Shown: positions 58,122-62,246 of the stretch, piece after piece
Position numbering within the stretch: the first letter of the stretch is position 1
Layout of the letters: each line of letters opens with the position of its first letter
NCBI RefSeq assembly: GCF_000421825.1
Contig: NZ_ATXT01000014.1
Coordinates: 1 to 64,000, forward strand
From: Humibacter albus DSM 18994
GTDB lineage: Bacteria; Actinomycetota; Actinomycetes; Actinomycetales; Microbacteriaceae
Direction: 5' to 3'
Length of the DNA stretch: 64,000 nt
Program-made: the position numbers and the translations under genes
Notes under the pieces: generated by a model
What the model was told of the DNA's origin: nothing
The model's database searches: none
What the model saw: only the letters and a program-made list of their open reading frames with translations

Positions 58122-58370
58122 TCAGCTCGCGACGCGGCCGATCGCCACTCGCCAGGTCTCGGGGCCCTCCTCGAGGTACTCCCAGCTGAACTGGCCAGCG
58201 TGCTCGGCCGCGAACTGGTAGTACAGCGGCTTCGGGTCGTGGTCGTTGACGAGCACGAAGCGCTCGCCGGCCGGCAGTGCGCCGTACGTCTCGAAGATGA
58301 GCGTATGGCGACGCGCCGGCTCCTCGGAGCGCACGTCGAGGATGGCGTCGGGGGAAGTCGAATCAGGCAC
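58122..58370 (-). CDS. DUF2249 domain protein
   Basis: The 82-residue protein starts at GTG 58370 after GAAAGGAAC and reads PDSTSPDAILDVRSEEPARR, HTLIFETYGALPAGERFVLV, NDHDPKPLYYQFAAEHAGQF and then SWEYLEEGPETWRVAIGRV. These are the DUF2249 hallmarks (L-D-V-R, N-D-H-D-P-x-P-L). DUF2249 proteins are regularly encoded with hemerythrin-like, NO-detoxification and nitrite-reduction genes; here the divergent neighbours are NnrS-like and NirK genes. Molecular role unknown. Confidence 0.88.
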   Translation of the reverse strand: MPDSTSPDAILDVRSEEPARRHTLIFETYGALPAGERFVLVNDHDPKPLYYQFAAEHAGQFSWEYLEEGPETWRVAIGRVAS

Positions 58371-58425
58371 GATGGGTTCCTTTCGCAGGCGGGAAGATGA
58401 CACGAACGTAGCACTCATTCGCGCA

Positions 58426-58451
58426 TAAAACGGAATAGAATGCGGTTTAAT
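58426..58451 (+). promoter_or_regulatory. Leaderless promoter / operator of the nitrite module
   Basis: TAGAAT at 58436-58441 is a good -10 and lies only eight bases before ATG 58450, so transcription should begin at or near the start codon. It is embedded in an imperfect inverted repeat, TAAAACGGAAT (58426-58436) facing AATGCGGTTTA (58439-58449), 8 of 11 positions matching. The right arm contains CGGTTTAAT, also present before the SufR-like gene at 15398-15406. Confidence 0.5.
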
Positions 58452-59604
58452 GACGGACACGAACAGCGCTCGCCGCCCGCCCGCTGCGGCTGCGCGAAGC
58501 CGGCCGGTTCTCGCGCGCGGCGGAGTGCGAGCACTGTTCCTCATCCCCGGTGGGCTGGCGATGCTCGCCGGCCTCGACGCCGCCCTCCTGCTGCTCGGGC
58601 TTCCGGCGCCGGTGACCACCGCGCGACTGCCCGTCGTGCACGGACCCTTGCTCGTGTTCGGCTTCATCGGCACCGTCATCGCCCTCGAACGCGCCGTCGC
58701 ACTGCGTCGCTGGTGGGCGATGGCGTCGCCGGCGTTCCTGGGAGTGGGAGGCATCCTGCTCATCACGCCGTTGCCGATCGTCGTGGGCCAGGCGTTCCTG
58801 GCCGCCGGGTGCGTGGGGCTGATCCTCATCTACGCCGGCATCTGGCGTCGACAGCAGATGCTCGCGTCGGCCGTGCAAGCGCTCGGGGCCTGGCTCGCCC
58901 TGGCCTCGACCATGCTCTGGATCGGCGGGCTGCCCGCCTCGTCGCTGGTGCCCGGCATGACGGGGTTCATCGTGCTCACCATCGCCGGCGAGCGCATCGA
59001 GCTGGCCCGCCTGGTGGCGATGAGCCGGCGCACCGAGGCCGTCGCCATCGCCGTGAGCATCACCCTCGGTCTCAGTGTGCTCGTCGCCATGCTCTGGCCG
59101 GCCGTCGGCTACCGGCTGTTCGGCGCCTGCCTGCTCGCGTTCGTCGCCTGGTTGCTCGTCTTCGACGTGGCCACGCGACTCGTCATCGGTGCCCGCCGCT
59201 TGCCGCGCTACGTCGCCGCCTGCCTGCTGGCGGGCTATGGCTGGCTCATCGTGGCCGGGCTGATCTGGCTGTTCGTCGGTCAGACGGTGGACGGTCCGTG
59301 GTACGACGGTGCCGTGCATGCGGTCTTCCTCGGGTTCACGGTGGGCATGATCATGGCGCACGCGCCCGTCATCCTGCCCGCTGTGCTGCGCCGACCTCTG
59401 CCGTACCGGCCGATGCTGGGCTGGCCCGTACTGCTGCTCAACCTGTCGCTCGTCGCACGCGTTCTCGTCGGCGACACGCAGAATCTGCCCGTCTGGGTGC
59501 AGATCGGCGGGGTCGCCGGTGTCGTGGCGCTGCTGCTGTTCGTGGTGCTCGCGGTGGCATCCTCGCTGATGGGGCCGCCGACACGGGAAAGGGTGGCGCG
59601 GTGA
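58450..59604 (+). CDS. NnrS-like multi-pass membrane protein
   Basis: The 384-residue protein has about 12 membrane helices. Conserved histidines sit in membrane contexts: ARLPVVHGPLLVFGFIGTVI and GAVHAVFLGFTVGMIMAHAPVILPAV. These resemble NnrS, a haem- and copper-containing protein that protects cells from nitrosative stress. The stop overlaps the GTG of the nitrite-reductase fusion by 4 bases. ATG 58450 lies right behind a -10 element, so the messenger is probably leaderless. Confidence 0.78.
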   Translation: MTDTNSARRPPAAAARSRPVLARGGVRALFLIPGGLAMLAGLDAALLLLGLPAPVTTARLPVVHGPLLVFGFIGTVIALERAVALRRWWAMASPAFLGVGGILLITPLPIVVGQAFLAAGCVGLILIYAGIWRRQQMLASAVQALGAWLALASTMLWIGGLPASSLVPGMTGFIVLTIAGERIELARLVAMSRRTEAVAIAVSITLGLSVLVAMLWPAVGYRLFGACLLAFVAWLLVFDVATRLVIGARRLPRYVAACLLAGYGWLIVAGLIWLFVGQTVDGPWYDGAVHAVFLGFTVGMIMAHAPVILPAVLRRPLPYRPMLGWPVLLLNLSLVARVLVGDTQNLPVWVQIGGVAGVVALLLFVVLAVASSLMGPPTRERVAR

Positions 59605-62246
59605 AGCTCTCCCGACGCACGTGGTACGCCGCCACGAACGGCGTGGTCGCCGCGTGGATAATCGCTGCAGGAATCGCACTCATCTGCAGCGCGCTCGTCG
59701 GCGCGCCGGTCTGGCTGGCCGTACACCTCATGCTGCTCGGCGGAGCGACGAGCGCCATCCTGGTCTGGAGCCAGCACTTCGCCGACACCATCCTGCGCAA
59801 GGCCGGCTCCCGCACGCCCATCGCTGTGCGGTTCGCCGTGCACACGCTCGGCGCGGTACTGGTGCTCGTCGGAGTGATGAACGGCCTGTGGATGCTCGCG
59901 CTCGCCGGCGGCACGCTCGTCGCCTTCGTCGCCGCCTGGCAATCCGCCTCTCTCACGGTTCGGATGCGCCGGGCGCTGCCGTCGAGGTTCGGTCCCCTCG
60001 TGCGCTACTACGTGTTCGCCGGCATCGCGCTGATCGCCGGCGTCACGGTGGGCGTCATCATGGCCCGCAGCGATGTTCCCGACCTCGCGCACGACAGGCT
60101 CTTCGTCGCGCACATCACGCTGAACGTGCTCGGCTGGATCGGGCTGACCGTGGTGGGCACGGTCATCCTTCTCTGGCCGACCGTCTTGCACGCGCGCATC
60201 GGCGACGCGTCGCAGCGCCGGTCGCGGGTGGCGCTGGCGGCGCTCTGCACGGGAGTGCTCGTCGTGGCCGCCGCGTGCGTGATCGGCGTGCGTGTCGGCA
60301 TCCTCGTCGGGGTGGCGATCTACCTCGCCGGCCTCATCGTCGTCGGCGTGGACCTGGGCGAGGCGGCCCGACGCACGCCACCGGTGAACTACGGCGGCTG
60401 GAGCATGGGTGCGGCTCTGCTCTGGTTCGCAGCGAGCGTCGTCGCGTTCGGCGTCGAGGTGGCGTTCGCCCGCTCCTGGCAGGCCGTGGCGGCTGGCTTC
60501 GTCACGTTGCTCGTGCCGTTCGGAATCGGCTTCGTCGCCCAACTGGTGATGGCGGCCTTGAGCTACCTCGTGCCGGTGGTGTTCGGCGGCGGGCCGCTGC
60601 GGGTGCGCGCGACGAACGCGGAGCTCGACAGGTTCGGGCTGTTCCGCGTGATCCTGATCAACGGGACGCTTGCGCTCGCCGTGATCCCGTCCGTGCCGGC
60701 GCGCGGCGTGTTCCTCGCCGTCGCCGGCCTCACGCTGCTCGTGCCGCTCGTGCTCGGCGTGCGCGCCCTCGTGGTGGCGCGCACCATGCCGGATCCGACG
60801 CCGGGGGAGCGGCACGTGCGACACGAAGGCACCAGGCGGCCGACGGGGGCGGAGCACCTGCACGGGAACAGCGGCGGCATCATGGCCGCGATCGGCGTGC
60901 TCGTGCTCGTAGCCTCCGTGAGCGTCGGCGTGGTGAATGCCACGGGAAGCGCGCCGGCGGGTGCGAGTTCCTCGGCCGCGACGACCACCGTGCACATGGT
61001 GATGAAGAACATGCGGTTCTCACCGTCGACCATCGATGTTCCGGTCGGAAACAGGCTGATCATCCACGTGAAGAACGACGACGACATGGTGCACGACCTC
61101 ACGCTTGCCGACGGCATCACGTCGGGGCGGCTCGTGGGCGGCGAGTCGGCCACCGTGGATGCGGGCGTCATCACCGCGTCCGAGGACGGCTGGTGCTCCG
61201 TCGTGGGCCACCGGCAGCTGGGCATGGTGTTCACCGTGGTAGCGACGGGCGCGGTCGCGTCGGGCGAAGCATCCGGCGAGGCGTCCGGCGGCATGGCGGG
61301 CATGCCCGGCATGACGGGTTCAGGTTCGGGGTCCGGTTCCGGATCGGCAGGGCCGTCGGCCGCCGACGACATCGACTGGGCGCGGGAGCCGTCGAAGTCG
61401 TTCACGGCGCGGGATGCCTCGCTCCCGCCGGCCCCGTCGGCTACCGTGCACGACTACACGTTCACGGTGCGCGACGTGGTGACCTCGGTGGCGCCGGGCG
61501 TCAAGCAGACGCTGTGGACCTACAACGGGACCGCGCCCGGACCTATTCTGCGCGGCAAGGTCGGGGACGTCTTCCACGTCACGCTCGTCAACAAGGGCAC
61601 GATGGGTCACTCGATCGACTTCCATGCCGGGTCGCTGGCGCCGAACAAACCGATGCGCACCATCCAACCCGGGCAGTCCCTCACCTACACCTTCACGGCC
61701 ACGCGCAGCGGCATCTGGCTCTACCACTGCTCGACCATGCCGATGTCGGCGCACATCGCGAACGGGATGTTCGGCGCCGTGATCATCGATCCGCCTGGGC
61801 TCGACAGCGTCTCGAAGGAGTTCGTGTTCGTGCAGAGCGAGTACTACCTCGGTCCGCAGAAGGGCATCGTCGACACCACGAAGCTCGCCGCCGAGAACCC
61901 CGACCTCGTCGTGTTCAACGGCTACGCGAACCAGTACCGGTACCGTCCGATCACGGTGAAGGCGGGCGAGAAGGTGCGCATCTGGGTGATGGATGCCGGT
62001 CCCAACAAGGCGAGCTCGTTCCACGTCGTGGGCGCGCAGTTCGACACCGTCTACAAGGAGGGCGACTATCTGCTGAGGAACGGCGGGTCCACCGGCACCG
62101 GCGGCTCGCAGGCGCTCGACCTGGAGCCCGCGCAGGGCGGATTCGTCGAGCTGACGTTCCCCGAGCCGGGCGACTACTCGTTCGTGACGCACATCATGTC
62201 CGACGCCGAGAAGGGCGCGGCGGGCACGTTCCACGTGGTGAAGTGA
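59601..62246 (+). CDS. Membrane-fused copper nitrite reductase (NirK) with extra cupredoxin
   Basis: The 881-residue fusion starts from GTG 59601. Residues 1-~410 are a multi-pass membrane domain with several intramembrane histidines (VHLMLLGGATSAILVW, FVAHITLNVLGWIG), NnrS/haem-copper-like. One further helix lies near 430-445. Residues ~460-545 form an azurin-type cupredoxin with a complete T1 copper set (MVHDL, then WCSVVGHRQLGM). After a Gly/Ser/Met linker (GGMAGMPGM) residues ~613-881 are a two-domain nitrite reductase: GHSIDFH (T1 and T2 His plus the catalytic Asp), YHCSTMPMSAHIANGM (H, C, H, M), SSFHVVGAQFD and THIMSDAEKGAAG. It would reduce nitrite to NO outside the cell, with the fused cupredoxin as electron donor. 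Confidence 0.9.
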   Translation: MKLSRRTWYAATNGVVAAWIIAAGIALICSALVGAPVWLAVHLMLLGGATSAILVWSQHFADTILRKAGSRTPIAVRFAVHTLGAVLVLVGVMNGLWMLALAGGTLVAFVAAWQSASLTVRMRRALPSRFGPLVRYYVFAGIALIAGVTVGVIMARSDVPDLAHDRLFVAHITLNVLGWIGLTVVGTVILLWPTVLHARIGDASQRRSRVALAALCTGVLVVAAACVIGVRVGILVGVAIYLAGLIVVGVDLGEAARRTPPVNYGGWSMGAALLWFAASVVAFGVEVAFARSWQAVAAGFVTLLVPFGIGFVAQLVMAALSYLVPVVFGGGPLRVRATNAELDRFGLFRVILINGTLALAVIPSVPARGVFLAVAGLTLLVPLVLGVRALVVARTMPDPTPGERHVRHEGTRRPTGAEHLHGNSGGIMAAIGVLVLVASVSVGVVNATGSAPAGASSSAATTTVHMVMKNMRFSPSTIDVPVGNRLIIHVKNDDDMVHDLTLADGITSGRLVGGESATVDAGVITASEDGWCSVVGHRQLGMVFTVVATGAVASGEASGEASGGMAGMPGMTGSGSGSGSGSAGPSAADDIDWAREPSKSFTARDASLPPAPSATVHDYTFTVRDVVTSVAPGVKQTLWTYNGTAPGPILRGKVGDVFHVTLVNKGTMGHSIDFHAGSLAPNKPMRTIQPGQSLTYTFTATRSGIWLYHCSTMPMSAHIANGMFGAVIIDPPGLDSVSKEFVFVQSEYYLGPQKGIVDTTKLAAENPDLVVFNGYANQYRYRPITVKAGEKVRIWVMDAGPNKASSFHVVGAQFDTVYKEGDYLLRNGGSTGTGGSQALDLEPAQGGFVELTFPEPGDYSFVTHIMSDAEKGAAGTFHVVK

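Follow-up and report, generated by a model that had tools for sequence, protein, structure and literature searches.

A predicted heme-copper oxidase fold in the membrane domain of a tethered copper nitrite reductase of Humibacter albus

Among actinobacteria, a NirK of about 900 residues was described in 2016 as carrying a transmembrane domain of about 400 residues "of unknown function" and a cupredoxin (PMC4770552, as far as its accessible text goes). The copper nitrite reductase (CuNIR) of Hyphomicrobium denitrificans also has a cupredoxin tethered to its N-terminus, and the accessible text on its crystal structure places the extra type-1 (T1) copper at too great a distance from the core for electrons to pass effectively (PMC7201279). 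In this study, we analyzed a stretch of 64,000 nucleotides from Humibacter albus DSM 18994 (contig NZ_ATXT01000014.1, positions 1 to 64,000; hereafter, the window), in which a single 881-aa protein joins a membrane domain (the N-terminal domain, NTD), a cupredoxin, and a NirK. The protein has the layout described in the accessible text of PMC4770552 (transmembrane part of about 400 aa, cupredoxin, NirK, about 900 aa in all); the architecture is already in print, and the window protein is a further member. We report that the NTD, like the protein encoded just upstream (UP), is predicted with high model confidence to have the subunit-I fold of heme-copper oxidases (HCOs), and that two NTD histidines are invariant. 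The fusion gene and its parts are as follows, in window coordinates and with TM denoting a transmembrane helix.

59601..62246, + strand: 881-aa fusion gene; predicted 12-TM HCO-fold domain, TM13, cupredoxin, and NirK
59601..60833, + strand: NTD, residues 1-411; 12 membrane helices, predicted HCO subunit-I fold (AlphaFold2, VIA-align, Foldseek)
59724..59726, + strand: H42, start of TM2, outer side, invariant (81/81 sequences)
59940..59942, + strand: Q114, TM4; His in 80/81 sequences, Gln in the window protein
60111..60113, + strand: H171, TM6, outer half, invariant (81/81 sequences)
60879..60935, + strand: TM13, residues 427-445, which takes the chain to the outer face (hydropathy)
60966..61235, + strand: cupredoxin, residues 456-545; T1 ligands H498, C532, H537, and M542
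61413..62243, + strand: NirK, residues 605-881; T1 ligands H670, C710, H718, and M723; type-2 (T2) ligands H675, H709, and H864; also D673 and H808

The fusion gene is a single intact open frame of 881 aa with a GTG start at 59601 and a stop at 62244-62246, and its start overlaps the stop of the upstream gene by four bases (GTGA). Pfam Cupredoxin_1 matches residues 455-520 of the product (E 3.3e-11), and the copper nitrite reductase model TIGR02376 matches residues 616-879 (E 3.9e-47) with a score of 161.2 bits, under the curated naming cut-off of 296.3; solved CuNIRs also match, the best at E 1.4e-46. A search with the NTD found 529 relatives, and the best 80 were kept for locus counts; all but L084 are actinobacterial by title. 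NTD, cupredoxin, and NirK share one frame at 68 of these 80 named loci, which span many genera. The remaining 12 loci lack at least one part in frame because of contig ends, frame breaks, a standalone NTD, or loss (L103, described below). The three-part fusion proposed from the sequence by an earlier note on this DNA is therefore borne out. That the chain is a sequencing or frame artefact is exceedingly improbable: two relatives (L031 and L069) do have their parts in different frames, but nothing in the window speaks for an artefact, and it is contradicted by the identical single-frame layout at so many loci. The L084 contig is labelled as a Spirochaetaceae metagenome-assembled genome (MAG) and carries an actinobacterial-type NTD; it is possibly misbinned.

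Twelve helices are predicted in the NTD with the N-terminus inside, and lysine and arginine are distributed 19 to 5 between the inside and outside loops. TM13 has a mean hydropathy of 2.68, and a comparable segment is found in 66 of the 69 fused relatives. From the helix count, the loop charges, and this 13th segment, it follows that the cupredoxin and NirK lie outside, as the earlier note had placed them. The protein is a membrane-tethered copper nitrite reductase on the outer face of an actinobacterium.

The copper sites were checked at 13 residues in 70 fused sequences (the window protein and 69 relatives). All 13 residues are present in 65 of the 70; M723L is the sole change in four, and L103 is without eight. 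The N-terminal cupredoxin of the window protein has a complete T1 site, as do 69 of the 70 sequences overall. In NirK, the two His, Cys, and Met of the T1 site are in place, as are the three His of the T2 site with the catalytic Asp (D673) and His (H808); the ligand roles are presumed from CuNIR numbering. The complete sites predicted earlier for both copper domains thus hold. The cupredoxin is likely the electron carrier to NirK, because proteins that retain one site retain the other, and the single exception has lost both.

In HCOs, TM2 and TM10 provide the ligands of the low-spin heme, TM10 that of the high-spin heme, and TM6 and TM7 metal ligands; the TM6 ligand binds copper or iron, TM7 supplies a His pair, and TM10 an HxH motif. 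The AlphaFold2 model of the NTD (81 sequences) reached a predicted local distance difference test (pLDDT) score of 93.1 and a predicted template modelling score of 0.91. In VIA-align, the model matched the cbb3 oxidase subunit CcoN (8smr_E; Z 33.2, 385 residues aligned, root-mean-square deviation 3.5), NorB (4xyd_A; Z 31.1), and bovine COX1 (Z 28.5), and among the 50 matches listed all were HCO subunits (Z 25.0 to 33.2, 367 to 396 residues aligned). All 15 Foldseek matches at E ≤ 0.001 were HCO subunit I. The predicted model has the 12-helix subunit-I fold of the superfamily, and only this predicted structure, not the sequence routes, assigns the NTD to it. Neither the NTD nor UP had a significant match in Pfam or NCBIfam, nor any Pfam membrane-family match. 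With 15 and with 81 members, the NTD family gave nothing significant for the fold in Pfam and nothing significant in profile searches of the PDB. The HCO family PF00115 did not match the window protein and matched one of 81 NTD relatives (E 2.6e-4). Comparison of the NTD by hhalign with the single pSymA FixN, NorB, and NnrS proteins and with the COX1 proteins of its own genome gave nothing significant, and neither did an NTD hmmsearch of a set of 10 sequences, in which a COX1 of its own genome scored best (E 0.011).

Both H42 and H171 are present in all 81 sequences, and the HCO ligands of TM7 and TM10 are not: any TM7 His occurs in 9/81 and any TM10 His in 20/81, with no TM7 or TM10 column holding His in more than 15/81. 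Because the ligands of TM7 and TM10 have been lost, the NTD is not a canonical HCO or NO (nitric oxide) reductase, and the latter identity was rejected on this ground. The description of the domain as histidine-rich was overstated, as H42 and H171 are its only universal histidines. Position 59 is His in 72/81 and position 114 is His in all but the window protein; neither is invariant, and both were rejected as heme ligands. H42 and H171 would sit in different sites, each short of partners, an arrangement that would be more in keeping with an open-site heme on a single histidine than with a heme for electron transfer. At 12 further NTD loci, H42 was present in 11/11 alignable sequences and H171 in 12/12; seven of these loci are in genomes without NirK, where the counts were 6/6 and 7/7. 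A mere membrane anchor, one outcome that would have overturned the earlier proposal, does not agree with the retention of both residues in all alignable NTDs of these NirK-free genomes. Probably, then, the domain is not a mere anchor and plays a part that does not depend on NirK.

Three side observations concern the domain itself. Compared with itself by hhalign, the NTD shows a hint of a repeat some 130 residues long (P 2e-4, probability 44%). A 452-aa multi-helix protein of Sinorhizobium meliloti pSymA, encoded near NnrS (L168:33231-34589, - strand) and lacking a Pfam or NCBIfam match, weakly resembles the second part of the NTD (P 0.002). An ungapped alignment of NTD TM6 with COX1 TM10 (common H, G, G, W, and P) was considered for the descent of the domain; its scores were not significant, and it was not used as proof.

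The distribution of NTD and NirK was surveyed in 296 genomes of the class (NTD at E ≤ 0.001, NirK at E ≤ 1e-50). The NTD was found in 49, NirK in 42, and both in 39, where chance would give about 7 (Fisher P 1e-35). Across 69 proteins, L103 being left out, distances for the NTD correlate with those for NirK with r 0.88, a value reached in 0/500 permutations. NirK occurs without the NTD in 3 of the 42 NirK genomes, and the NTD without NirK in 10 of the 49 NTD genomes. Six of these 10 (G108, G117, G130, G199, G208, and G241) are at least 95% complete and have a near full-length match; of the others, G220 has a weak fragment (E 1.6e-4), and G120, G169, and G191 are 77-84% complete. A standalone NTD lies beside DUF2249 and/or hemerythrin genes in five of nine stretches (L141, L142, L145, L148, and L152), two of which (L145 and L152) belong to genomes with NirK elsewhere. 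This count leaves out L143 (G314:C53) and L151 (G191:C119), in which the gene reaches the contig end, and L150, in which NirK is the next gene. Genome G199 (L142 and L203) has two NTD copies with one in-frame stop each and no NirK; these may be decaying copies or sequencing errors.

Natural rearrangements separate the parts further. At L150, UP, the NTD, and a cupredoxin-NirK are adjacent separate genes. One contig (L197) carries UP, a cupredoxin-NirK with a single helix at its N-terminus, and an NTD beside DUF2249, together with narGHJI-like genes (judged by eye). At L198:4458-7037 (- strand), a single 859-aa frame consists of UP, a helix, the cupredoxin, and NirK; 12 of 13 checked UP positions are conserved in it (R27 was not aligned), and a standalone NTD lies about 11 kb away. 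This fusion rests on one genome (84% complete, about 320 contigs), and no second one was found among 3 genomes of the family, the same 3 of the order, and 396 of the phylum. In genomes without an NTD match, L199-L201 have a cupredoxin-NirK preceded by one or two hydrophobic segments at the N-terminus. The unit of cupredoxin-NirK and its own helix is therefore a module that has been joined to two different domains of predicted HCO fold, and each part is separable. The converse loss is seen in Speluncibacter jeojiensis (L103:7908-10163, + strand), where an open 751-aa frame keeps the NTD with H42 and H171. Its cupredoxin is missing (13 residues aligned versus 105 in the window), and its NirK has lost D673, H675, H709, H718, and M723. 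The mean identity of its NTD to the others is 40.6%, seventh lowest of 70, and that of its NirK is 45.1%, the lowest of 70, with the next lowest at 58.6%.

The genes next to the fusion gene are as follows.

58450..59604, + strand: UP, 384-aa 12-TM protein, predicted HCO subunit-I fold, no Pfam match, four-base overlap with the fusion gene
58122..58418, - strand: divergent DUF2249 gene, start inferred (PF10006, E 1.7e-29)

The AlphaFold model of UP (55 sequences) had a pLDDT of 92.7 and matched CcoN (Z 27.3) and NorB (Z 25.6) in VIA-align. The likeness of the membrane half to this neighbor, which the earlier note had called NnrS-like, stands for the predicted fold, as both best match CcoN, but not at the sequence level (hhalign against the UP family, single-comparison P 0.012, probability 3.6%). 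UP is encoded upstream of the NTD in 53 of the 75 loci with 1.3 kb of upstream sequence; the 22 loci without it include one with a broken UP (L081). At L094:6130-7968 (+ strand), a 612-aa frame with a putative start codon places a winged helix-turn-helix before UP (HTH_24, E 4.9e-6) and is possibly a regulator fused to a membrane sensor. The DUF2249 gene was listed as the frame 58122-58829, with the domain at frame residues 164-232. Such a gene lies within 3.5 kb of the NTD in 54 of the 73 loci whose upstream sequence spans 2.5 kb or more, near NTDs with NirK and near those without. In a haloarchaeon, DUF2249 genes are induced under denitrification (PMC11218638, accessible text).

The genome of H. 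albus has narG (TIGR01580, 1596 bits). A COX1-type NO reductase was not found in this assembly (99% complete), because its only two COX1-family genes are both aa3-type. According to the accessible text of PMC10999283, Nor is missing from many organisms whose NirK falls in the actinobacterial and archaeal clades, and these must "tolerate or process" NO otherwise, and the NirK clade with most actinobacterial sequences is prevalent in all biomes studied except geysers; the window NirK itself was not placed in that tree.

How these parts work together can be read in more than one way. We lean, tentatively and short of calling it probable, towards an HCO- or NnrS-like NTD that handles NO, in preference to one that feeds in electrons from quinol. 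The membrane chain would deliver electrons to the T1 copper of the cupredoxin, from which they would move on to the T1 and then the T2 site of NirK, where nitrite would become NO. The NTD need not supply electrons and would have its own job: it would hold heme and/or copper at the outer-side H42 and H171 and most likely bind or process the NO made next door, or pass it on, with UP as another module of this fold. In the fusion, the NO-making site would stay beside the NO-handling domain. This proposal draws on the fold match to NorB and CcoN, the NirK-free occurrence, the DUF2249 and hemerythrin neighbors, and L103. It also draws on the invariance of H42 and H171, including in NirK-free genomes; on the NirK genomes without the NTD (L199-L201), which keep cupredoxin-NirK on one or two segments; and on a genome with narG in which no COX1-type NO reductase was found, in line with the Nor absence reported in the accessible text of PMC10999283. 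Several points weigh against it. The NTD cofactor is a candidate only, predicted from histidines; NO binding is a guess, and NorB-like reduction of NO is very unlikely given the missing TM7 and TM10 ligands. Four of the nine standalone stretches (L144, L146, L147, and L149) have no DUF2249 or hemerythrin match, in one of the five that do (L142) the NTD is interrupted by an in-frame stop, and L103 is one sequence. The hhalign comparison with the single pSymA NnrS gave nothing for the NTD, nor for UP. Finally, a NorB-like frame of 801-849 aa lies directly downstream of the fusion gene in 10 of the 80 loci (L031-L035, L037, L040, L043, L058, and L079; nine Cryobacterium isolates and one Cryobacterium MAG), and by Pfam the single frame scanned, that of L043, is of the qNOR type; the NTD therefore persists where an NO reductase is present.

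Alternatively, the NTD could oxidize quinol, or take electrons from the chain, via a bound heme and feed the cupredoxin, which would make the protein a self-contained quinol:nitrite oxidoreductase. The invariant outer-side histidines in an HCO fold, the nearly universal cupredoxin T1 site, the excess of genomes with both NTD and NirK, the co-inheritance seen in their distances, and the joining of cupredoxin-NirK to either HCO-fold protein are all compatible with this, yet we consider it unlikely. No conserved TM10 His is available to complete a low-spin heme, NirK and NTD each occur without the other, L150 encodes them separately, and L103 keeps the NTD without a working-looking NirK; the same facts, together with the absent TM7 ligands, weaken the self-contained quinol- or heme-linked enzyme suggested earlier. 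Less likely still is the null view that the NTD is an anchor, or a scaffold for assembly or copper delivery, derived from an HCO-like protein and holding no redox cofactor. Most HCO ligands have indeed been lost, and L199-L201 manage with one or two helices as their anchor, so the large domain would do something else, such as assembly. Against this, 12 helices are costly for an anchor, and H42 and H171 are invariant across 81 sequences and in NirK-free genomes. A wider proposal seems to us possible and still doubtful: a branch of the HCO fold without the oxygen- or NO-reducing site would have been welded to a copper nitrite reductase of the outer face at least twice (the NTD widely, UP in a single genome), would bind heme or copper at two outer-side histidines, and would link nitrite reduction to the quinone pool or to NO handling in one chain, in organisms often without a known NO reductase. 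If true, it adds to the HCO fold a branch without the catalytic site. The predicted fold of the NTD with its two exact candidate ligands, and the same predicted fold in the co-produced UP, open the electron supply of a Gram-positive NirK and the fate of its NO to single-residue tests.

NnrS (PF05940) is a multi-helix membrane protein of nitrite and NO gene clusters that binds heme and copper. The UP family has weak Pfam matches to it (3/55, best E 0.047). It gave no match in the window proteins and was absent among 25 of the 26 families listed for the NTD, whereas the pSymA NnrS control scores E 1.9e-113 with the same library. CcoN, NorB, and COX1 share with the NTD the 12-helix subunit-I fold predicted for it and the His in TM2 and TM6; they differ in the TM7 His pair and TM10 HxH, absent in the NTD, and no significant sequence match joins them. 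The H. denitrificans CuNIR likewise carries a T1 cupredoxin on the N-terminal side of its CuNIR core, but it is described as a three-domain enzyme, and the accessible text mentions no 12-helix domain (PMC7201279). Closest is the actinobacterial NirK of the Propionibacterium acnes type, with the same transmembrane N-terminus and extra cupredoxin and with its NirK in clade II; in the accessible text, the transmembrane domain is unassigned, whereas here an HCO fold is predicted for it and two of its histidines are invariant (PMC4770552). We found no published statement of the NTD fold, the UP fold, or the second fusion in a search of abstracts and openly accessible text, so earlier publication is possible. 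Relative to these systems, what is new is the predicted HCO fold of the NTD and UP, H42 and H171 as the only invariant HCO ligands, the UP fusion, and the NirK-free NTD.

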